64,000 nucleotides of DNA. Origin: Luteibacter aegosomaticola (GTDB taxonomy: Bacteria; Pseudomonadota; Gammaproteobacteria; Xanthomonadales; Rhodanobacteraceae). Each line of letters opens with the position of its first letter. The stretch's first letter is position 1. The position numbers and the translations under genes are program-made. A model generated the notes under the pieces. The model ran no database searches and was not told the origin of the DNA. It saw nothing but the letters and a program-made list of their open reading frames with translations. Shown piece by piece: positions 8,506 through 17,584 of the stretch. Location of the stretch: positions 868,001 to 932,000 of the forward strand of contig NZ_CP095741.1 in NCBI RefSeq assembly GCF_023078475.1, given 5' to 3'.

Positions 8506-9486
8506 TTACGCGAATCCAGCAATCGGGTGCGGCGCGTACGCCTCTTCCAACACCTTCATCTCATCCGCCGTCAGCTTCAGGCTCAATGCCGCGACAGCAT
8601 CATCGAGATGATGCGCCTTCGAGGCGCCGACGATCGGCGCGGTAATCCCCGGCCGCTGCGCCACCCACGCCAGCGCCACCTGCGCGCGCGGCACGCCACG
8701 CTCATCGGCGAGCTTCTTCACCGCCGCCACGATCGCGCGATCGGAATCTTCCGTCGCCTTATACAACGTGCCGCCGAACACATCCTTCTCTTGCCGTTCG
8801 CTCGACTCATCCCAATCGCGGGTAAGACGGCCACGTGCCAGCGGGCTCCACGGAATCACGCCGATACCCTGGTCCTGGCAGAACGGAATCATCTCGCGCT
8901 CTTCTTCGCGCTGGATCAGGTTGTAGTGGTCCTGCATGCTGACGAACTCTGTCCAGCCGTGCAGGCGTGAGGTGTAAACCATCTTCACGAACTGCCACGC
9001 GTGCATCGATGATGCGCCGATGTAACGAGCCTTTCCGGCCTTCACGACATCGTGCAGCGCCTCGAGTGTCTCCTCGATCGGCGTATGCGGGTCAAAGCGA
9101 TGGATCTGCAGCAGGTCGATGTAATCCGTGCCGAGGCGGCCCAGTGAATCATCGACCGACTGGAAAATCGCCTTGCGCGAGAGGCCTCCCGTGTTCGGCG
9201 CCTTGCGCCACGGGTAGAACGTCTTGGTGGCGATCACCAGCTCATCGCGCCTCGCAAAATCTTTCAGTGCGCGGCCCACGATCTCTTCCGACGTGCCATC
9301 GGAATACATGTTCGCAGTGTCGAAGGTGTTGATGCCGAGATCGAGCGCCTTGCGGATGAAAGGCCGGCTCTGCTCTTCGTCGAGCGTCCAGGCATGGTTG
9401 CCGCGCTCGGCCACACCATAGGTCATGCAGCCAAGGATCACCGGCGAAATATCAAGCCCGGTCTTGCCCAACTTCACGTATTGCAT
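8506..9486 (-). CDS. Aldo/keto reductase (YajO/YghZ-like)
   Basis: A 326-residue NADPH-dependent aldo/keto reductase with a TIM-barrel fold. The catalytic tetrad is visible: Asp and Tyr in DTANMYSDGTSEE, Lys in VIATKTFYPW and His in LQIHRFDPHTP. C-terminal cofactor-binding residues appear in PIVGASKAHHLDDAV. The N terminus MQYVKLGKTGLDISP is typical and GGAG precedes it. It probably reduces aldehydes or ketones in the cytoplasm; the physiological substrate is unknown. It is monocistronic and convergent with the glycosyltransferase gene. Confidence 0.9.
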   Translation of the reverse strand: MQYVKLGKTGLDISPVILGCMTYGVAERGNHAWTLDEEQSRPFIRKALDLGINTFDTANMYSDGTSEEIVGRALKDFARRDELVIATKTFYPWRKAPNTGGLSRKAIFQSVDDSLGRLGTDYIDLLQIHRFDPHTPIEETLEALHDVVKAGKARYIGASSMHAWQFVKMVYTSRLHGWTEFVSMQDHYNLIQREEEREMIPFCQDQGIGVIPWSPLARGRLTRDWDESSERQEKDVFGGTLYKATEDSDRAIVAAVKKLADERGVPRAQVALAWVAQRPGITAPIVGASKAHHLDDAVAALSLKLTADEMKVLEEAYAPHPIAGFA

Positions 9487-9576
9487 GGGGGAACTCCGTG
9501 TGGGTCATCAAAGGATGTTGCATAGCGTACATGGCCCTTGAAACCACGAACCCCAACCCCACCTGACAGGGAGCGC

Positions 9577-9605
9577 TTGCAGCCCCACGGGCCCAGGCGT
9601 ACGAT
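9577..9605 (+). promoter_or_regulatory. Sigma-70-type promoter for the EF-G paralogue leader
   Basis: A -35 element TTGCAG at 9577 and a -10 element TACGAT at 9600 are separated by exactly 17 bases. Transcription would start near 9612, about 20 bases ahead of a 31-codon leader ORF. The match is good but was found by eye only. Confidence 0.55.
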
Positions 9606-9631
9606 CCGCCCCCAATTCACCGAGATCCGCC

Positions 9632-9727
9632 ATGTCTGCCTGCAAGCACGCATTGATCCACCTGACTACGAACGCCCCATGGGCGCGTCGCGGGTGCGCG
9701 CGCGCCGTGGCAGGCCGTACGCCGTAA
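9632..9727 (+). CDS. Putative leader peptide (31 aa) upstream of EF-G paralogue
   Basis: A 31-codon ORF starting MSACKHALIHL and ending AVAGRTP, containing a single Trp followed closely by two Arg codons. It sits between a sigma-70-like promoter (9577) and an intrinsic terminator (9752). Bases 9690-9697 (GCGGGTGC), inside the ORF, are perfectly complementary to 9756-9763, the 5' arm of the terminator. They can instead be held in the loop of a local hairpin (9682-9687 with 9701-9706). This is the layout of an attenuation leader whose ribosome position selects between structures. The ribosome site is weak (GAGA). It could also simply be part of a short untranslated RNA. Confidence 0.5.
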   Translation: MSACKHALIHLTTNAPWARRGCARAVAGRTP

Positions 9728-9751
9728 GGCGCCGGACCTCGCAGCAACACC

Positions 9752-9780
9752 AAAAGCACCCGCAAGGGTGCTTTTTTTTT
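9752..9780 (+). terminator. Intrinsic terminator/attenuator ahead of the EF-G paralogue
   Basis: A perfect 10-bp stem (AAAAGCACCC with GGGTGCTTTT) closed by a GCAA tetraloop is followed by a run of nine or more T. It stands 25 bp beyond the leader ORF stop and 188 bp ahead of the EF-G paralogue, with no longer gene between promoter and terminator. An attenuator is therefore the simplest reading; a ~170-nt small RNA ending here is the alternative. Confidence 0.85.
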
Positions 9781-9967
9781 GTCCCGAATTTTCCCGAACC
9801 CCGAATTTCCAAGCCCGTTACCGGAGCACCGTGCCATGAAGAACTGCCGCGATCCCCGATCCTGACCCGTCCCCATCCACGCCAGGGGCGACGGGAAAGC
9901 CTCGGGGAATGCCTCGCTCGAAGACATGACGTCGAGCCCCTGGCGCCCTGAATGGAACCGTTTAACC

Positions 9968-12034
9968 ATGAGTACCCGCGAAACCACCATCCCCGTCGGC
10001 CGTTGGCGCAACCTCGGCATCATCGCCCACGTCGACGCTGGTAAAACCACGCTCACCGAGCGCCTCCTCTATAAGACCGGCACGATCCATCGCACCGGTG
10101 AGGTGCACGATGGCGCGACCACCACCGACCACATGGAACTCGAGCGCGAGCGTGGCATCACGATCGGCGCCGCCGCCGTGCGCGCGAACTGGACGCCGGA
10201 AGGTGGCCTGCCGCATCGCCTGACGCTGATCGACACCCCGGGACACATCGATTTCGCGATCGAAGTGGAACGTTCGCTGCGCGTACTCGACGGCGCCGTG
10301 GTCGTGTTCTCCGGCGTGGCCGGCGTGCAGCCGCAATCCGAAACCGTATGGCACCAGGCGCGCCGGCATGGCGTGCCGCTGATGGCGTTCGTCAACAAGA
10401 TGGATCGCCCCGGCGCGGATTTCGACGCGACGCTCGAACAGATGCGCGAGAAGCTCGGCGCCAACCCGTGGGTCGTCGCCCAGCCGGTGATCGAGGGTGA
10501 ACACATCGTGGGCCTCTACGACCTCGTCGCGGAGCGCACCTGGCTGTTCGACGAAAAGGGCACGCCGGTGATCACGCCGTGGACCGACGCGGAACGTGCG
10601 ATGCATGCGAATGCGCGCGCGGAACTCGTAGCGGCCGTGGCCGACAAGGACGAAGCCCTGGCGGAACTCTGGCTGGCGGAACAACCCATTGATGCGGCCA
10701 CGCTGACGGCAGCCCTGCGCCGCGGGACGCTGGCGGGCATCGGTCAGCCGGTGCTGCCGGGCTCGGCGTTCCGCAACGTCGGTATCGAGCCGCTGCTGGA
10801 TGCGTTCGTCGCGTATCTGCCTTCACCGGTGGATCGTCCGTCCGTGGTCGCACACACCGACAAGGGTGATGTGCAGGTCGCGCCCGATGCGAACGCCCCG
10901 TTCGCGGCACTCGTGTTCAAGGTGGTGAACCAGTCGCATGGTCCGCTGGCCTTCCTCCGCGTGTATTCGGGGCGCCTGCATGTGGGCGACGCCGTGTGGC
11001 ATAGCGGCACCGATCGCACGCAGCGCATCGGCCGCCTGGCAGTCGTGCGCGCTGACGACACCGAAGCGGTGGACATCGCCGAGGCGGGCGACATCGTCGC
11101 GATCATGGGCTGGAAGGACGTGGCTACCGGTGAAACGCTCGCCGATCCGCACCATGAACTGCGCCTGGAAACCATCCAGGCCCAGCCCGCGGTGTTGTCG
11201 TGGCGGCTCTCGCCGGAACGTTCGGCCGACCTGCTCAAGCTCGGCAACGGGCTGGCGCGCCTGGCGCAGGAGGATCCGTCCTTCCGCGTCAGCACCGATC
11301 CGGAAACCGGCGAAACCCTCGTCTGGGGCATGGGCGAACTCCATCTGGAAGTGATGGTGGAGCGCCTGCGCCGCGAATGGGGTGTGCAGGTGCGAACGGG
11401 TTCGCCGCGCGTGGCTTATCAGGAGACGCCGGCCCGTCCGTCGGGTCCGATCGAAGGCAAGCTCGCGAAGCAGACCGGTGGTAGCGGCCAGTACGCGCGA
11501 GTGGTGCTGTCGGTATCGCCGGTAGAAGGCGATGCGAACCGCTACGAGGATCGCACCACGGGTGGCGTGATCCCGAAGCAGTTCCAGTCGGCGGTGCAGA
11601 AGGGTGCGGAACAGGCCCTGCTGGAAGGCCCGCGTGGCTTCCCGGTGGTGGGCGCGGAAGTGCTCGTCCTCGATGGCCAGGCGCATGCCGTGGACTCGAA
11701 CGAAGGCGCGTTCCATCGTGCCGCGCAGATCGCGGTGAAGGCTGCCCTCGAGGCGACCGGTACCGTGCTGCTCGAACCGGTGATGCGCGTATCGGTGACC
11801 GCGCCGGGTGTGGCGGTGGGCGATGTGCTGGGCGACCTGCAGCGCCGTGGCGGCCAGATCGTGAACCTGACCGACAAGCAGGAACGCACGGAGATCGAAG
11901 CCGATGTGCCGCTGGCCCAGCTCGACGGGTACAGCACCGCGCTGCGTAGCCTGAGCCAGGGCCGCGCCGCCGCGACGGTAGCGTTCCACGCCTACCGCCC
12001 GGCCACGGTCCAAGAAGCCCGCAAGCAAGCCTAA
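9968..12034 (+). CDS. Elongation factor G paralogue (EF-G2-like translational GTPase)
   Basis: A 688-residue translational GTPase. All G motifs are present: AHVDAGKTTLTE (P-loop), RGITIGAAA (switch I), DTPGH, NKMDRPGAD and GSAF. Domains II-V follow, including GMGELHLEVMVERL and the C-terminal LGDLQRRGGQIV segment. It reads as EF-G rather than a TetM-type protection protein, but it is divergent and not in a ribosomal-protein (str) operon, so it is probably a second EF-G. Such paralogues may act in ribosome recycling, stress or resistance to translocation inhibitors. The start at 9968 fits the family N terminus; an in-frame ATG at 9926 is possible. A nine-codon mini-ORF at 9836-9865 lies between the attenuator and this gene. 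Confidence 0.88.
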   Translation: MSTRETTIPVGRWRNLGIIAHVDAGKTTLTERLLYKTGTIHRTGEVHDGATTTDHMELERERGITIGAAAVRANWTPEGGLPHRLTLIDTPGHIDFAIEVERSLRVLDGAVVVFSGVAGVQPQSETVWHQARRHGVPLMAFVNKMDRPGADFDATLEQMREKLGANPWVVAQPVIEGEHIVGLYDLVAERTWLFDEKGTPVITPWTDAERAMHANARAELVAAVADKDEALAELWLAEQPIDAATLTAALRRGTLAGIGQPVLPGSAFRNVGIEPLLDAFVAYLPSPVDRPSVVAHTDKGDVQVAPDANAPFAALVFKVVNQSHGPLAFLRVYSGRLHVGDAVWHSGTDRTQRIGRLAVVRADDTEAVDIAEAGDIVAIMGWKDVATGETLADPHHELRLETIQAQPAVLSWRLSPERSADLLKLGNGLARLAQEDPSFRVSTDPETGETLVWGMGELHLEVMVERLRREWGVQVRTGSPRVAYQETPARPSGPIEGKLAKQTGGSGQYARVVLSVSPVEGDANRYEDRTTGGVIPKQFQSAVQKGAEQALLEGPRGFPVVGAEVLVLDGQAHAVDSNEGAFHRAAQIAVKAALEATGTVLLEPVMRVSVTAPGVAVGDVLGDLQRRGGQIVNLTDKQERTEIEADVPLAQLDGYSTALRSLSQGRAAATVAFHAYRPATVQEARKQA

Positions 12035-12044
12035 AGGCGCACTT

Positions 12045-12141
12045 GTAGGAGCTCACCCTGTGAGCGACGCCGTTCGCGACGCCGCCACAGGGCCCGCGGC
12101 GGGTTGAGGCGAAAGATGTCGCCCACAGGGTGGGCTCCTAC
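12045..12141. repeat. REP palindrome pair (CCCACCCTGTGGG family)
   Basis: A 97-bp inverted pair between the EF-G paralogue and moeA. The left arm carries the compensated variant GCTCACCCTGTGAGC, like the right arm at 5559. It ends 17 bp before the moeA start codon, so any moeA promoter must lie within or upstream of it. Confidence 0.9.
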
Positions 12142-12158: not shown

Positions 12159-13355
12159 ATGCTTACCTATGCCGAAGCACTTGCCGTACTGATGAACGAG
12201 GCCCACCCGCTCGAGACCGAGCGGGTGGGCCTTTCCGTGTCCATGGGCCGGATCCTCGCCGAACCGGTGCGCAGCCCGCTTTCACTGCCTTCCTTCGATA
12301 ACGCTGCGATGGATGGCTTCGCGATTCGCCAGGGCGAGGGCGACCTCCCGGTCGGCGCGGTCTTCACCATCGCCGGCATGCAGGCCGCGGGTGACCACAC
12401 CACCGCCTACCCAGGCGCCGAGGCATGCGAAATCGCCACGGGTGCCCGCGTACCGGATGGCTTCGATACCGTGATCCCCGTCGAGCGCTGCGAGCGCGAT
12501 GGTGAACGCGTTCGCCTGCTGCAGGCGGAAAAGCGTGGCCAGAACATCCGCGCAGCCGGAGGTGACGTCGGGCAGGGCGACACGGCGCTTCCCGCCGGCC
12601 GGCGTATCGACGCGGCGGCCATCATGCTGCTGGCCGCCTTAGGCATCGAGACGGTGCTCGTGCGGCGCCGCCCGCGCGTGGCCATCATCAACACCGGCAG
12701 CGAACTGCACGCGAGCGGTCCCTTGCCGGAAGGCGGCATCCACGATTCGAACGGGCCGTTCCTTGAAGCGATGCTGGCCACGTGGGGCGTCGAACTCCTC
12801 GCACGCCACCGGGTTCCGGATACAGGCGATGCCTTCCGCATAGCGGTCGAATCCATGCGCGCCAGCGGTGCCGATCTCATTCTCAGCACGGGTGCCGTTT
12901 CAGCGGGCCGCTTTGATTTCGTGCCTTCGGCGCTGGCCGCGATGGGCGCACGCGAGCTCTTCCACAAGGTAGCCATCCGTCCGGGTAAACCGATCCTCGC
13001 GGCGCGTTTCGACGGCGGCCCGCTGGTGCTGGGCTTGCCCGGCAATCCCATTGCCGTCGCCGTCGGCCACCGCTTCTTCGTGGCGCCCGTGCTGCGCGCG
13101 ATGGCCGCGCTACCACCCGAGGTACCCAGCCGCGTGCGTCTCGCCGAGAGCCACGACGTACGTCCCGGCCTGCAGCACTTCGCGCTGGGCCGGCTCGAGG
13201 CCGACGAAGCGGGCCGCCAGGTCGCCCGCGTGCAGCGCAACCAGGCCGCTTACCGCATCGTGCCGTTCACGCAGGCCAACGCGTGGCTGACGGCGGACAG
13301 TGCCTTTGGCGAGGTCGTCGATGCCTGGCCGCTCGACCCGGCGCACGCGCCGTGA
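12159..13355 (+). CDS. moeA: Molybdopterin molybdenumtransferase
   Basis: A 398-residue cytoplasmic enzyme that inserts molybdate into adenylated molybdopterin. Family marks are SFDNAAMDGFAI near residue 46, the ATGARVPDGFDTV segment, the GGDVGQGD segment, the MoCF-binding NTGSELHASG and SLTGAVS-like STGAVSAGRFDF, and GLPGNPIAV near the C terminus. It overlaps mobA (GTGA) and heads a cofactor operon that is convergent with fdhD and a molybdoenzyme gene. Confidence 0.94.
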   Translation: MLTYAEALAVLMNEAHPLETERVGLSVSMGRILAEPVRSPLSLPSFDNAAMDGFAIRQGEGDLPVGAVFTIAGMQAAGDHTTAYPGAEACEIATGARVPDGFDTVIPVERCERDGERVRLLQAEKRGQNIRAAGGDVGQGDTALPAGRRIDAAAIMLLAALGIETVLVRRRPRVAIINTGSELHASGPLPEGGIHDSNGPFLEAMLATWGVELLARHRVPDTGDAFRIAVESMRASGADLILSTGAVSAGRFDFVPSALAAMGARELFHKVAIRPGKPILAARFDGGPLVLGLPGNPIAVAVGHRFFVAPVLRAMAALPPEVPSRVRLAESHDVRPGLQHFALGRLEADEAGRQVARVQRNQAAYRIVPFTQANAWLTADSAFGEVVDAWPLDPAHAP

Positions 13356-13882
13356 TCGGGGTGATCCTCGCCGGCGGCCGTTCGTCGCGCATGGGCGAAG
13401 ACAAAGCGCTGTTGCGCGTCGGTGAGCGCACGTTGCTCGAGCGCACGCGGGACGTGTTGCTGGAAGCTGGCGCGGGTGCCGTCGTGATCAGCGGTGCAGC
13501 GCACGATGGCATCGCCGACCGCTGGCCAGATAAAGGTCCCATCGGCGGCATCGCCAGCGTGGTCGCCGAGCTGATTGATGACGAACTGCTCGTGGTCCCG
13601 GTCGACATGCCGCACCTGGATGCCGCCACGCTCGCGCCGCTACGCGATGAGCGGCGCATGCGCGCCACGCGTTGGGCGGGTCATCCGCTGCCTATGCGGC
13701 TCAGGCTGGATGGCACCACGCGCGCGGTCCTGGCCGAGTTCGTGGAGCTCGAGGGCAGGGCGTGTTCCGTTTCTGCCTTGCAGGCACGCATCGGCGTCGC
13801 CACGCTTTCCCTAGACCAGGTCGACACGACGGCGCTGGCCAACTGCAACACCCCCGATGAATGGCGTGAGGCGAATCCATGA
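13352..13882 (+). CDS. mobA: Molybdenum cofactor guanylyltransferase
   Basis: A 176-residue nucleotidyltransferase that converts Mo-molybdopterin to the guanine dinucleotide form needed by DMSO-reductase-family enzymes such as formate dehydrogenases. The N-terminal ILAGGRSSRMGEDKALL is diagnostic, and KGPIGGIASV and VPVDMPHLD follow. The start is a GTG at 13352 that overlaps the moeA stop as GTGA; it puts the glycine-rich loop at residue 6, as in the family. It in turn overlaps the next gene by four bases, showing translational coupling. The protein is somewhat short for MobA but carries the key segments. Confidence 0.88.
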   Translation: MIGVILAGGRSSRMGEDKALLRVGERTLLERTRDVLLEAGAGAVVISGAAHDGIADRWPDKGPIGGIASVVAELIDDELLVVPVDMPHLDAATLAPLRDERRMRATRWAGHPLPMRLRLDGTTRAVLAEFVELEGRACSVSALQARIGVATLSLDQVDTTALANCNTPDEWREANP

Positions 13883-14220
13883 GAGTGCAACTGGAGAACG
13901 ACACGATCCGTGTCCGCATCGATGAGGATGAACTGGCCGAACTGCTCGGCGATGTCGCCTTGCTCGGTTCCACGGCGTTCGGCCGCGCCTTCACCATGCG
14001 CTATGCGATCGACGCTACCGATGCGGGCCATTGCGCGCTGGAGGGCGATGCGCATGAGTGGCGCCTCGCCGTGCCGCGCGCCCAGCTCCTCGACCTCAAG
14101 GCACGCCTTCCCAGCAAGGACGGCCTCGTCTTCGACATCCCCGGCCACGACACCGTCGCGACCACCGTCCTCTTCGACGTCGACGTCAAAGACAGCATCA
14201 AACGCCGCCGTAACCCCTGA
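13879..14220 (+). CDS. Conserved hypothetical protein in the molybdenum cofactor operon
   Basis: A 113-residue soluble protein, start ATG overlapping the mobA stop (ATGA). It is acidic near the N terminus (RIDEDELAELLGD), with alternating hydrophobic residues that suggest a small beta-rich fold, and ends in a basic tail KRRRNP. It has no signal peptide or membrane segment. I do not recognise the family with certainty; the tight coupling to moeA and mobA suggests a role in cofactor delivery or in the formate-dehydrogenase-like enzyme encoded convergently, but this is only inference from position. Confidence 0.7.
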   Translation: MRVQLENDTIRVRIDEDELAELLGDVALLGSTAFGRAFTMRYAIDATDAGHCALEGDAHEWRLAVPRAQLLDLKARLPSKDGLVFDIPGHDTVATTVLFDVDVKDSIKRRRNP

Positions 14221-14252
14221 CGCCGCCGCACCCCGGACAACGCCGCACCCTT

Positions 14253-14320
14253 GTAGGAGCGCGCTTGCGCGCGATGGGTGCTTGCGGCAAGCCCCCGATC
14301 GCGCGCAAGCGCGCTCCTAC
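14253..14320. repeat. REP palindrome pair (GCGCGCTTGCGCGC family)
   Basis: Two inverted copies of GTAGGAGCGCGCTTGCGCGC around a short spacer, between the convergent ends of the mobA operon and fdhD. It probably forms the shared 3' hairpin of both mRNAs. Confidence 0.92.
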
Positions 14321-14334
14321 AAGGGCGGTTTACA

Positions 14335-15258
14335 TCAAAGCGGGGGGGAATAGATGCGTTCGGGGCGGCTATAGACGTTGAAGCGGCCGGGCCGGGCGAA
14401 ACCGACCAGGGTAAGGCCGCATTCGGTGGCCAGGCTGACGGCCAGAGCGGTGGGGGCGGAGATCGCAACCAGTACGGTCATGCCCGCCACGGCGGCCTTG
14501 GTCACCATCTCGTAGCTCGCGCGGCTGGTGATCAGGGCGAAACCTTCGCGCGGATCGATGCCGCGCCGGGTCATGGCGCCAATCAGCTTATCCAGTGCGT
14601 TATGCCGGCCCACGTCTTCGCGCACGACCATCAGCGACCCATCGGCCCGAGCCCATGCCGCGGCGTGTACCGAGCCGGTGAACGCGTTGATCGGCTGCTC
14701 CGCCCGGAGCGCTTCGAGGGCGCGTTCGATCGCGTCCGGTGACACGCTCGTGCCCGCGGCAACCGGCCGAGGGCGGCGAATCACATCTTCGAGTTCACGC
14801 GTGCCACAGATGCCGCAGCCACTACGTCCAGTCATCTCACGCGCGCCGAACGAGGAGGCCTCGTCAGCCGCCGCTTCGATGGCCACGGCCGTATCGGCCA
14901 TGGACCCCGCTTCGGCGGCCATGCGTTCAACGGCCGCCATGTTGGCTGCAGCGACGCTGGCATCCGTCGGAGCGCGGGTTCGCACATCGATCGAAATACC
15001 CTCGAGCATCTCGTGGATCTCGATCGATTCGATATCGCGCACATCGTCGACGCGGCTTTCCGTCAGCGCGAAACCGCGGGCGAAATCCTCAAGGTCGACC
15101 GGCGACGCCATCATCACCGCGAAGGGCTTGCCGTCGAAGTGCAGGGCCACCGGCACCTCTTCCGCCAGGCGGTCCTGGTCCTCGACGCGACGGCCGCGCT
15201 CGTAGCGCGTGACGGTGCGCCGTGCGCTACCGGCGGGTGGGGTCAGGTCATGCTGCAT
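14335..15258 (-). CDS. fdhD: Formate dehydrogenase accessory sulfurtransferase
   Basis: A 307-residue protein that transfers sulfur from IscS to the molybdenum cofactor of formate dehydrogenases. The persulfide-bearing motif CGICG is visible in RSGCGICGTREL. The GSVHAAAWARADG, VREDVGRHNALDKLIG and SRASYEMVTKAA segments are also typical. An alanine-rich stretch of about 35 residues (from TDASVAAANMAAVERMA to AADEASSFGA) precedes the cysteine motif and makes the protein longer than the usual ~270-280 residues. The start at 15258 overlaps the upstream molybdoenzyme gene by 11 bases. Confidence 0.93.
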   Translation of the reverse strand: MQHDLTPPAGSARRTVTRYERGRRVEDQDRLAEEVPVALHFDGKPFAVMMASPVDLEDFARGFALTESRVDDVRDIESIEIHEMLEGISIDVRTRAPTDASVAAANMAAVERMAAEAGSMADTAVAIEAAADEASSFGAREMTGRSGCGICGTRELEDVIRRPRPVAAGTSVSPDAIERALEALRAEQPINAFTGSVHAAAWARADGSLMVVREDVGRHNALDKLIGAMTRRGIDPREGFALITSRASYEMVTKAAVAGMTVLVAISAPTALAVSLATECGLTLVGFARPGRFNVYSRPERIYSPPL

Positions 15259-17584
15259 GGGTGGCCTTCTTCCGCCGCGGTGAGCCGGCTGGCTCCGTCG
15301 ATGCCACGATGCGCACCGGTACCGACTTGTAGGTGGGCGTGCCGGAATGGCTATCGTGGTTCTCCAGCGAGATAAGCGCGTTGCCTTCCGGGTAGTACAT
15401 GGCGACCGAGCCTTCGGCGATGTCGTAAGCGACGGCGGTGAAGCCGCGCACCGCGCGTTGGCGGCCATCCGCGGTGTTGCGCCCGGTGGCGAAGATATCG
15501 ATGCGGTCGCCATGCTTCAGGCCGCGCGCCGCGAGGTCGCTGGCGTGCATGAACACGACATCGCGCCGGCCGGTGACACCGCGGTAGCGATCGTTGAGGC
15601 TATAGATCGTGGTGTTGTACTGGTCGTGCGAGCGGATGGTAGTGAGCATGAGCCCGCCTTCCTCCACGCGGTCGTCTTCATCGAGGCCCCGCGCCAGCAG
15701 GAACTGGGCCTTCTTGCTCGGCGTCGCCCAGTCGCGCTCACTGGCGGCGACACGCAGGCGAAAGCCACCCGGCACGTTCACGCGCTTGTTGAAGTCAAAG
15801 AAGATCGGGAAGACCTTCTCGATATCGTCGCGAATCAGGTTGTAATCGCCCACCAGCGTGTCCCATGCCACACGGGTGTGCGGAAGAGCAGCCTTTGCGA
15901 TCCCGGCGACGATCCACGGTTCAGAACGCAGGTGCTCAGAGGCAGGCGTGAGCGTGCCGGCCGAGGCGTGCACCATCGACATGGAATCTTCCACCGTGAC
16001 GGCCTGCGGGCCGGTGGCCTGTTCGTCCAGTTCGGTACGGCCCAGGCAGGGCAGGATGAAGGATTCCTTCGCCAGCAGCAGGTGCGAGCGATTGAGCTTG
16101 GTCGCCACGTGCACGGCGAGATCGAGCTTGCGCATCGCCTGGAAGGTTTCTTCGGTATCCGGCATGGCGACGGCGAGGTTGCCGCCCAGTGCGATCATCG
16201 CCTTCGAGCGACCATCGCGGATGGCGAGGAGCGACGCGACCGCATCGTGGCCGTGTTCAACCGGTGGTTCGAAACCGTACGTGCGGCGAATGCCTTCGTT
16301 GAGATCGGCGTTCGGCTTCTCGGTGATACCCACCGTGCGATCGCCCTGCACGTTGCTATGCCCACGCAGCGGGCAGATGCCTGCGCCCTGGCGGCCGATA
16401 TTGCCGCGCATGAGCAGCAGGTTCGCGATCTGCTGGACGTTCTCGGTACCGTGCTGGTGCTGGGTGATGCCCATGCCGTAGCACACGATCACTGCCTTGG
16501 CCTTCGCATAGATGGAGGCGGCGTATTCGATTTCGCCGCGGGTCAGGCCACTCGTGCGCTCGATATCGGCCCACTCCGTGCCGCTCACGTCCGCGACCAG
16601 CGCATCGAAGCCTTCGGTGTTTTCCGCGATGAACGCGTGGTCGATCACCGGAGGAAGCCCGGCGTCGCGAGCGATGGTGTCCTCCTCCACGAGGTACTTC
16701 ATCATGCCCTTGAGCACGGCCACATCACCGCCGATCTTCACCTTGTAGTAGGTGGAGGCGATGCGTACCGATTTGCCCGTGAGCATCTCGGACGCGTGCT
16801 GCGGCGAGGTGAAGCGTTCGAGGCCACGCTCGGGCATCGGGTTCATGACCACGATGGGGACGCCGCGCAGGGACGCTTCACGCAGCGTGGAAAGCATGCG
16901 CGGGTGGTTGGTGCCGGGGTTGTGGCCGATGCAGAAGATGGCATCGCAGTGGTCGAAGTCTTCGAGCAACACCGTGCCCTTGCCCGAGCCCAGCGACTTG
17001 GGCAGACCGACGCTGGTGGCCTCGTGGCACATGTTCGAGCAATCGGGGAAGTTGTTGGTGCCGTACTCGCGAACGAACAGCTGGTAGAGGAAGGCCGCTT
17101 CGTTCGATGCACGGCCCGAGGTGTAGAACTCGGCCATGTTCGGATTGGGCAGCGCCTGCAGCGCGGCGCCGATACGGCGGAAGGCTTCTTCCCATGCGAT
17201 CGGCTGGAAGGTATCCGAGCCCGCGTCGTAGGCCATGGGATGGGTCAGGCGGCCCAGGCCCTCGAGCGTGTAATCGCTGAGCTTCCACAGCTCGGCCACG
17301 GTGTTCTTTGCGAAGAACTCCGGGCGCACACGCTTGGCGGTGGCTTCCCACGACACGGCCTTGGCACCGTTCTCGCAGAACTCGAACGACGAGGTCTCTT
17401 TCGGATCGGGCCACGCGCAGCCGGGGCAGTCGAAACCATGCGGCTGGTTCACCTTGTGCAGGGCGATGGATTCGCGCGCGATCGCCATTTGCCCACTCAG
17501 GGCACGGGCCACGGCGCCGAGGGCACCCCACCCGCCAGCAGGGCCGTCGTAATCGTCGATGCCGGGGACGCGCTTGTCGCTCAT
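15248..17584 (-). CDS. FdhF/YdeP-type molybdopterin oxidoreductase
   Basis: A 778-residue cytoplasmic enzyme of the formate-dehydrogenase-alpha-like (YdeP) family, which binds bis-molybdopterin guanine dinucleotide. The N-terminal FDCPGCAWPDPKE segment holds only part of the four-cysteine cluster of classical FDHs, as is normal in YdeP-like proteins. Other marks are SGRASNEAAFLYQLF, CHEATSVGLPKSLGSGKG, the cofactor-binding GHNPGTNHPRML and the C-terminal MYYPEGNALISLENHD. It lies in an operon with fdhD, opposite moeA/mobA, so all the cofactor steps are close by. The physiological substrate is unproven; E. coli YdeP is linked to acid resistance. No electron-transfer subunit is adjacent. Confidence 0.88.
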   Translation of the reverse strand: MSDKRVPGIDDYDGPAGGWGALGAVARALSGQMAIARESIALHKVNQPHGFDCPGCAWPDPKETSSFEFCENGAKAVSWEATAKRVRPEFFAKNTVAELWKLSDYTLEGLGRLTHPMAYDAGSDTFQPIAWEEAFRRIGAALQALPNPNMAEFYTSGRASNEAAFLYQLFVREYGTNNFPDCSNMCHEATSVGLPKSLGSGKGTVLLEDFDHCDAIFCIGHNPGTNHPRMLSTLREASLRGVPIVVMNPMPERGLERFTSPQHASEMLTGKSVRIASTYYKVKIGGDVAVLKGMMKYLVEEDTIARDAGLPPVIDHAFIAENTEGFDALVADVSGTEWADIERTSGLTRGEIEYAASIYAKAKAVIVCYGMGITQHQHGTENVQQIANLLLMRGNIGRQGAGICPLRGHSNVQGDRTVGITEKPNADLNEGIRRTYGFEPPVEHGHDAVASLLAIRDGRSKAMIALGGNLAVAMPDTEETFQAMRKLDLAVHVATKLNRSHLLLAKESFILPCLGRTELDEQATGPQAVTVEDSMSMVHASAGTLTPASEHLRSEPWIVAGIAKAALPHTRVAWDTLVGDYNLIRDDIEKVFPIFFDFNKRVNVPGGFRLRVAASERDWATPSKKAQFLLARGLDEDDRVEEGGLMLTTIRSHDQYNTTIYSLNDRYRGVTGRRDVVFMHASDLAARGLKHGDRIDIFATGRNTADGRQRAVRGFTAVAYDIAEGSVAMYYPEGNALISLENHDSHSGTPTYKSVPVRIVASTEPAGSPRRKKATHAA

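Follow-up and report, generated by a model that had tools for sequence, protein, structure and literature searches.

A conserved leader with features of ribosome-controlled attenuation precedes an elongation factor G paralogue in Luteibacter and related Gammaproteobacteria

Why should a bacterium keep a short reading frame and a transcription terminator of their own in front of a spare translation factor? Duplicates of elongation factor G (EF-G) are common and their purpose is mostly obscure, and a dedicated leader is a direct handle on what such a paralogue is for. The question is raised by a 64-kb stretch (hereafter the window) of the 5.09 Mb genome of Luteibacter aegosomaticola, in which an EF-G paralogue is preceded by a first open reading frame (ORF1), an intrinsic terminator, a second, very short frame (ORF2) and a pseudoknot. 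We consider it about 75% probable that this leader of 390 bases combines ribosome-controlled transcription attenuation, operating through ORF1, with a translational layer made of ORF2 and the pseudoknot, both serving this one gene. A conserved, apparently ribosome-sensing leader suggests that the paralogue is a conditional factor for faltering translation. The features, numbered from the first base of the window, are as follows.

9577 to 9605, plus strand: promoter-like site, with -35 TTGCAG (9577-9582), a 17-bp spacer and -10 TACGAT (9600-9605).
9632 to 9727, plus strand: leader frame ORF1, 31 codons, peptide MSACKHALIHLTTNAPWARRGCARAVAGRTP.
9673 to 9685, plus strand: hairpin H1, CGCCC/GGGCG, 9673-9677 with 9681-9685, just 5' of the antiterminator and overlapping an arm of the protector hairpin.
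9682 to 9706, plus strand: protector hairpin of an earlier reading, 9682-9687 with 9701-9706, complementary in the window.
9690 to 9697, plus strand: antiterminator (AT), GCGGGTGC, inside ORF1, pairing with 9756-9763.
9752 to 9780, plus strand: intrinsic terminator, ten pairs within 9752-9775, a GCAA loop and then a T-run; its 5' arm includes 9756-9763.
9823 to 9865, plus strand: ORF2 with its Shine-Dalgarno sequence, GGAG 9823-9826, ATG 9836, peptide MKNCRDPRS, TGA 9863-9865.
9866 to 9945, plus strand: H-type pseudoknot, stem 1 9866-9871 with 9890-9895, stem 2 9880-9889 with 9936-9945.
9968 to 12034, plus strand: EF-G paralogue, 688 amino acids (P0001), ATG at 9968, GTPase motifs intact.

An attenuator at this locus had been proposed from the letters of the window alone. 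The components named in that sequence-only reading (a promoter with 17-bp spacing, a 31-codon frame, a terminator with ten pairs and a GCAA loop, and the EF-G paralogue) all lie where it had placed them, and the complementarity on which it turned is exact, 9690-9697 (GCGGGTGC) being the perfect complement of 9756-9763 (GCACCCGC) in the 5' arm of the terminator. Such a match in a single genome proves little, because 5.5% of 200 dinucleotide shuffles of 75 nt contained a 7/7 match to bases 1-7 of the terminator arm (a 7-base test with G-U allowed, rather than an exact 8-nt Watson-Crick match), and relatives therefore had to decide.

The same leader was found ahead of the same paralogue in 57 genomes, comprising 23 Luteibacter, 5 Tahibacter-like and 29 sister-family genomes; these 57 loci from two families are the entire comparative data set, and none was left out except where stated. 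A terminator lies between leader ORF and gene in 57/57, the antiterminator shares its 5' arm in 57/57, and AT is always situated 63-76 nt 5' of that arm. The AT:arm pairs are kept at 7/7 in 47 leaders, 6/7 in 9 and 5/7 in 1 (at least 5/7 in 57/57), with shuffles equalling or beating the observed match 12% of the time on average. The comparison shows, on the level of potential base pairing, that in each of the 57 leaders the terminator 5' arm has two alternative partners, AT and the terminator 3' arm, and the arrangement of ORF, complementarity and terminator first proposed for one genome is thus kept across two families.

Compensatory change was observed in genus g28, which is Stenotrophomonas by inference only (Stenotrophomonas proteins of ~60% identity occur among the paralogue matches). 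In 7 of its 8 genomes the arm has changed from GCACCC to GCGCCC together with AT from GGGTGC to GGGCGY (U-A to C-G), and in the eighth (G646) the arm change is present and the pair is the U-G intermediate. Three strands, namely AT and both terminator arms, have changed together in this clade, which is the kind of covariation for which the sequence-only reading had pointed to alignment of relatives. Over the 34 non-Luteibacter rows of alignment A3, 95.4% of AT:arm cells are paired and a single pair shows two-sided change, in 7 rows; AT taken together with the non-Luteibacter hairpin P1 (below) yields 14 two-sided cells, above all 500 shuffles. The terminator is 100% paired in the 34 non-Luteibacter rows, with two-sided change at two pairs. 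AT is nearly invariant in Luteibacter (alignment A6, 23 rows; 98.9% paired) and so cannot covary there.

ORF1 is a candidate translated frame across the switch region: its start and frame are kept in 57/57 leaders, while constraint on its peptide is weak. Its ATG lies 45-75 nt 5' of AT and the frame stays open through AT in every case; its length is 29-36 codons, and it ends 25-36 nt 5' of the terminator arm. The distance from ATG to AT is 56 or 59 nt in Luteibacter (2 mod 3 in 23/23) and 54, 57, 60, 63 or 66 nt in other genera (0 mod 3 in 34/34), the 63 nt of six g28 leaders being due to a further ATG in frame; each group thus keeps its frame relative to AT despite length changes. Translated, AT typically gives R-G-C-A in Luteibacter and, in other genera, G-R-V-R or E-R-A-C; since Luteibacter reads AT in a different frame, its bases are held by RNA pairing. 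Of the three frames, the true one of ORF1 has the lowest nonsynonymous to synonymous ratio (pN/pS) in both large sets, outside Luteibacter barely (0.90 vs 0.97), and ties in group f2oth. Conservation of the peptide is highest close to its start (Cys-Lys-His in 21/23 Luteibacter, Pro-Leu-Leu in 33/34 others), with an ATA codon directly after Leu-Leu in 23/34 non-Luteibacter ORF1s. A +X+ peptide stall motif was considered as a universal ORF1 feature and rejected on motif counts, as it is not in every leader: R.R occurs in 31/34 non-Luteibacter ORF1s (R-V-R in 24, coinciding with the RNA-constrained AT) and [RK].[RK] in 15/23 Luteibacter. Inspection of predicted folds by eye, without counting, also places the ORF1 stop in or beside a small hairpin loop in the window (~9712-9735) and in many of the 57 leaders; such a hairpin could shorten the antiterminator loop.

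A second module, absent from the sequence-only reading and new in this comparison, separates the terminator from the gene. ORF2 is present in 56/57 leaders (55 by motif, and G155, with a variant start motif, by eye), with 9 codons in 50 of the 55 measured, 10 in 3, 7 in 1 and 14 in 1; its Shine-Dalgarno sequence is kept, and its stop is TAG or TGA, TAA occurring in none measured, and normally lies directly against stem 1 of a pseudoknot of a-b-a'-b' topology. Over the 34 non-Luteibacter rows of alignment A4, pairing in stem 1 reaches 97.1%, with two-sided change at 7/10 pairs (0/500 shuffles as high). Stem 2 outside Luteibacter is GCCAAC/GTTGGC, invariant in 34 sequences; Luteibacter (alignment A5, 22 rows) has GCCAGGGG/CCCCTGGC instead, and its pseudoknot has 95.0% of cells paired (30/500 shuffles reach that) and 3 two-sided pairs (23/500). 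The pseudoknot ends shortly 5' of the EF-G ribosome-binding site, with ~100 nt from ORF2 stop to EF-G ATG in the window. The aligned leaders show that ORF2 normally stops against stem 1 of a predicted, covarying pseudoknot shortly before that site. One Luteibacter genome (G123, locus L030) has the EF-G start within ~40 nt of the terminator and may be regarded as a natural single-stage variant.

The ORF2-pseudoknot module was also searched for with a covariance model (R1), built from the 34 non-Luteibacter leaders and run with strict filters (18-24 candidates scored per genome). Among 198 sister-family genomes, it returned one match in each of the 29 paralogue carriers; these supplied most training rows, so that their matches are expected and the informative part is the near-absence of others, within filter limits. 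The 169 sister-family genomes without the paralogue gave a single weak match (25 bits, E 0.0096), and a set of 147 genomes gave the 5 Tahibacter-like carriers plus one weak match; both weak matches (G567, 25 bits; G066, 27 bits) are taken as chance. R1 detects no Luteibacter leader (0/12), these being too distant. Under the strict filters, R1 did not find the module before other genes, the ORF1-terminator module not having been searched by model; a DNA search with the window leader gave short matches of 24-45 nt elsewhere (L017, L019-L023). Rfam gave no match in the window at gathering score, the only matches being sub-gathering ones in lax scans of 9480-9980 and of 12 of the 56 relatives.

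The product of the gene fits EF-G. It scores 701.2 bits against the TIGR00484 (EF-G) model, above the curated cut-off of 659.4, and among solved structures the best matches to two members are bacterial EF-Gs, with mitochondrial ribosome-releasing factor 2 and TetM/TetO ranking behind them. The tet(M) gene encodes an EF-G-like GTPase and lies behind an attenuating leader. Unlike tet(M), the gene here scores only 376.8 bits with the model for Tet ribosomal protection (NF012153, tet_protect), below its cut-off of 775, and a tet(M)-like identity was therefore ruled out. The paralogue shares ~46% identity with the canonical fusA product of the same genome, and GTPase motifs compared between the two are intact in the paralogue. 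A tree built from 12 chosen paralogues plus 9 other EF-Gs places the paralogues on one side of a branch with support of 100/100, and the nearest named relatives of the window's protein are from Luteibacter. The gene 5' of the leader encodes an aldo-keto reductase on the opposite strand, so the terminator is not needed by any directly upstream plus-strand gene.

At a threshold of E at most 1e-190 or a stricter one, the paralogue is present in 23/23 Luteibacter genomes, in 5/8 genomes of the Tahibacter-like genus g14 and in 29/198 genomes of the sister family (Xanthomonas, Lysobacter, Luteimonas and probable Stenotrophomonas), while matches in the class sample (3/369) and phylum sample (5/398) come solely from these same groups. 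The genomes include Tahibacter harae (G065), Xanthomonas sp. AmX2 (G708), Lysobacter enzymogenes (G695), L. silvisoli (G584), L. antibioticus (G679), Luteimonas panaciterrae (G666) and Montanilutibacter psychrotolerans (G570). Compared with fusA of Xanthomonas cissicola, 16/17 sister-family genomes gave 83-88% identity (no match in one) and two Tahibacter-like genomes 78-79%. Flanking ORFs inspected by eye in 11 loci vary among genera and the leader and gene remain together, so that these look like one unit. Plasmid copies were sought, and all 57 plasmid records fell below 60% identity (45-48% among the matches listed). A public record named Bacillus sp. NP157 (P0003) is probably misnamed, and would correspond to the Luteibacter-group genome G033.

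How might such a leader operate? Transcription would start near 9612, and the place of the leading ribosome on ORF1, as the terminator arm is made, would decide between AT:arm pairing and the terminator. A ribosome held 5' of AT would leave AT free and permit readthrough into the EF-G gene; the terminator would form when a ribosome covers AT or, in Luteibacter, when no ribosome is present and the leader folds AT away. Long transcripts would then expose ORF2, on which a ribosome would open stem 1 and alter EF-G initiation. Under this scheme, the spare EF-G would be made when translocation, termination or recycling slows, and slow or stalled translation is the most likely trigger. A more specific version, which we hold only tentatively and consider rather improbable as it stands, is that the leader senses EF-G function at both EF-G jobs, providing feedback by factor activity and not by antibiotic or amino acid. 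ORF1 would report slow translocation (ribosome held 5' of AT, hence antitermination), ORF2 would report that termination or recycling has failed (a ribosome delayed on the stop codon, with stem 1 open), and the back-up EF-G would be made only if both readouts permit.

Folding predictions are consistent with parts of this scheme. Values are equilibrium estimates that carry no kinetics, and transcripts were ended before the terminator 3' arm unless stated. In Luteibacter, the bare leader gives a mean probability of 0.07-0.09 for pairing between AT and the terminator 5' arm (AT:T5), and masking the whole sequence 5' of AT brings this to 1.00; with the ribosome edge at AT-30 to AT-21 it is 0.80-0.93, at AT-18 it is 0.51, and at AT-6 to AT it is 0.86-1.00. 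Outside Luteibacter, AT:T5 collapses only once AT itself is covered. Shuffling AT reduces AT:T5 to 0.08-0.14. The models thus favour readthrough for several but not all ribosome positions 5' of AT in Luteibacter, and for all tested ones in other groups, and the behaviour of the ribosome-free leader may differ between groups.

The element that would hide AT is less uniform than the sequence-only reading had supposed. Its competing hairpin (9682-9687 with 9701-9706) is complementary in the window, but in Luteibacter it is 89% paired with one pair broken in 10/23 and no covariation, and the minimum-energy fold of the bare window leader (z = -2.09) has the terminator formed without it. Reduced to its inner 5 bp, this hairpin is 98% paired in Luteibacter, but two-column shifts also pair fully. 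H1 is 100% paired in 23/23 Luteibacter (16/500 shuffles reach that), with a two-sided change at one pair in 2 sequences, and its counterpart in other genera is 86% paired. Outside Luteibacter, P1 is a 6-bp hairpin that presents AT as a 7-nt loop and is 94% paired, one of its pairs showing two-sided change. Two competing hairpins 5' of AT are likely on these models.

Several results weigh against the proposed two-layer control, in whole or in part. The number of two-sided pairs in A3 is 2, as high in 457/500 shuffles, and the compensatory AT:arm change is confined to one clade and probably arose once, since all eight g28 genomes belong to one genus. ORF1 is weakly constrained at the amino-acid level 5' of AT, with pN/pS of 0.76 for Luteibacter, 0.90 for the other genera pooled and 1.17 for group g302. 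In the second module, the ORF2 stop is shifted off stem 1 in G149 (earlier stop) and G701 (lost stop), G123 is without the whole module, stem 2 outside Luteibacter cannot covary because it is invariant, and covariation of the Luteibacter pseudoknot is slight, its score being reached by 203/500 shuffles. As for folding, ribosome edges at AT-15 to AT-9 give AT:T5 of only 0.09-0.32 in Luteibacter, and outside it the bare leader already favours AT:T5 (0.46-0.89); with the protector varying by genus in addition, the sign of control is something we infer. The sequence-only proposal that slow or stalled ribosomes would allow readthrough agrees with the folds at some Luteibacter ribosome positions and not at others, nor does it fit the bare leader of other genera. 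AT:T5 is still 0.79-0.96 after the AT-to-arm spacer is shuffled, so spacer order adds little; the window's AT-to-arm stretch folded alone forms AT:arm, yet is no stabler than shuffles (z = -0.37); and once the 3' arm is included, most leaders have the terminator arm paired downstream, with a probability below 0.2 in 5/57 (Xanthomonas, Lysobacter, Tahibacter).

Some of these observations would be equally at home in a switch that is real but operated by the binding of a protein or small molecule (ribosomal protein, EF-G paralogue or pseudoknot ligand), with the ORFs secondary. The invariance of stem 2 in 34 sequences and the weak constraint on the ORF1 peptide point that way, and H-type pseudoknots beside start sites occur in riboswitches and ribosomal protein leaders. 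We regard this as unlikely, given that start codons, the frame of ORF1 to AT and the usual 9-codon ORF2 are kept, AT lies inside ORF1, and Rfam offers no match at gathering score. That the terminated transcript (~9612-9780) is instead a trans-acting small RNA, the EF-G gene being reached by ordinary readthrough, is less probable still. Its size of ~170 nt, strong terminator and long U-run would suit a small RNA, and the rli80 attenuator of Listeria has likewise been called one (PMC6310831). All 57 leaders nevertheless sit before the EF-G paralogue, R1 has no strong match elsewhere (this concerns the ORF2-pseudoknot part, the ORF1-terminator part being without a model search), and AT has changed along with its own terminator, as a cis switch requires. 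A plain upstream terminator with chance complementarity and no regulation draws on the 5.5% match rate in one genome and on the many short ORFs of GC-rich DNA; conservation in 57/57 and the compensatory change contradict it unless they are an alignment artefact, and we give it hardly any credence.

Ribosome-controlled attenuation with a translational layer accordingly remains our preferred reading, and its parts have precedents. With a terminator and a mutually exclusive antiterminator present, the leader would work like a leader-peptide attenuator, in which the dependence on the ribosome is putative. In the repY-repZ system of IncI/IncB plasmids, translation of a short leader ORF governs a pseudoknot beside the main start site; the present leader resembles it by description only, as a short leader ORF with a pseudoknot, and differs in that repZ is a plasmid replication gene. 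A close parallel in the literature is the vmlR leader of Bacillus subtilis (PMC9226507), where transcription and translation attenuation control an ABCF factor: it has an upstream ORF, an anti-antiterminator, an antiterminator, an intrinsic terminator and two layers, and its target acts on the ribosome, but that target is an ABCF ATPase in a Gram-positive bacterium, with, in the abstract, one upstream ORF and no second mini-ORF with pseudoknot. The hflXr leader (rli80) of Listeria similarly has a short ORF and a terminator/antiterminator switch before a ribosome-splitting factor homologue; as described in the excerpt of PMC6310831, its 14-aa ORF carries an RLR motif and overlaps the anti-antiterminator in a single-stage design for the HflX family, whereas here the antiterminator itself is inside the ORF and R-X-R is not universal. 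In Pseudomonas aeruginosa, the PA5471.1 leader of armZ is a gammaproteobacterial case of leader-peptide transcription attenuation upon ribosome stalling, with an efflux-pump anti-repressor and not a translation factor as its target in the excerpt available (PMC13041342). The obgE leader of that species, perhaps a further case of the principle, has an upstream ORF and premature 3' ends before a GTPase gene, fewer under the ribosome inhibitor azithromycin, but its authors assign those ends to the start codon and not to an intrinsic terminator, and the excerpt of PMC8297930 mentions neither fusA nor EF-G.

Second EF-G copies are themselves known in Gammaproteobacteria, as EF-G1A/EF-G1B of P. aeruginosa (PMC3832671) and as gcEFG2 and spdEFG2, named in 45 Gammaproteobacteria and in Stenotrophomonas, respectively (PMC4342817). 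The former copies are 84% identical (46% here) with leader control undescribed in the excerpt, and the latter excerpt catalogues duplicates without regulation. Among the matches listed from openly licensed papers on Xanthomonas, Stenotrophomonas and Lysobacter genes, nothing was tied to the EF-G paralogue: the excerpts give elongation factor G merely in a table (PMC7688217), one EF-G in a small RNA study (PMC3039613), GreA only (PMC8745565), or neither Xanthomonas nor Stenotrophomonas (PMC3150367). Among openly licensed titles and abstract beginnings, the matches listed likewise contained no report of a leader-controlled EF-G, in agreement with the earlier impression that such control is undescribed. 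If it operates as proposed, the leader would carry attenuation of this type beyond resistance genes to a core elongation factor, and would do so in Gram-negative bacteria that count widely studied genera among them; its tandem design, a transcriptional switch followed by a mini-ORF with pseudoknot, would be an addition as well.

Minor observations concern the two ends of the locus. The promoter-like site at 9577-9605 is absent from a strict promoter scan because it matches 7/12 consensus bases and the scan requires 9; over the 57 leaders, best-scoring sites average 8.1/12 matches vs 6.5 in shuffles and have a TTG -35 in 56/57 (the scoring itself favours TTG), and in several leaders the top site is only 40-66 nt 5' of the ATG and may be spurious. 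In six Stenotrophomonas-like leaders (L161, L163, L145, L165, L166, L167), a -10 box TAGAAT ends 7 nt 5' of an ORF1 ATG, so that translation of ORF1 may start on a leaderless mRNA. Downstream of the EF-G paralogue, 12159-17584 holds molybdenum cofactor genes (MoeA, FdhD, molybdopterin oxidoreductase), and a MoeA-like protein was also seen by eye 3' of the paralogue in three other Luteibacter loci (L030, L035, L055). The octamer GTAGGAGC occurs in 21 copies in the window vs 1.06 expected (e.g. 12045-12052 on the plus and 12134-12141 on the minus strand), and several plus/minus pairs spaced 60-90 bp form palindromes resembling repetitive extragenic palindromic (REP) elements, one of them right after the EF-G gene.

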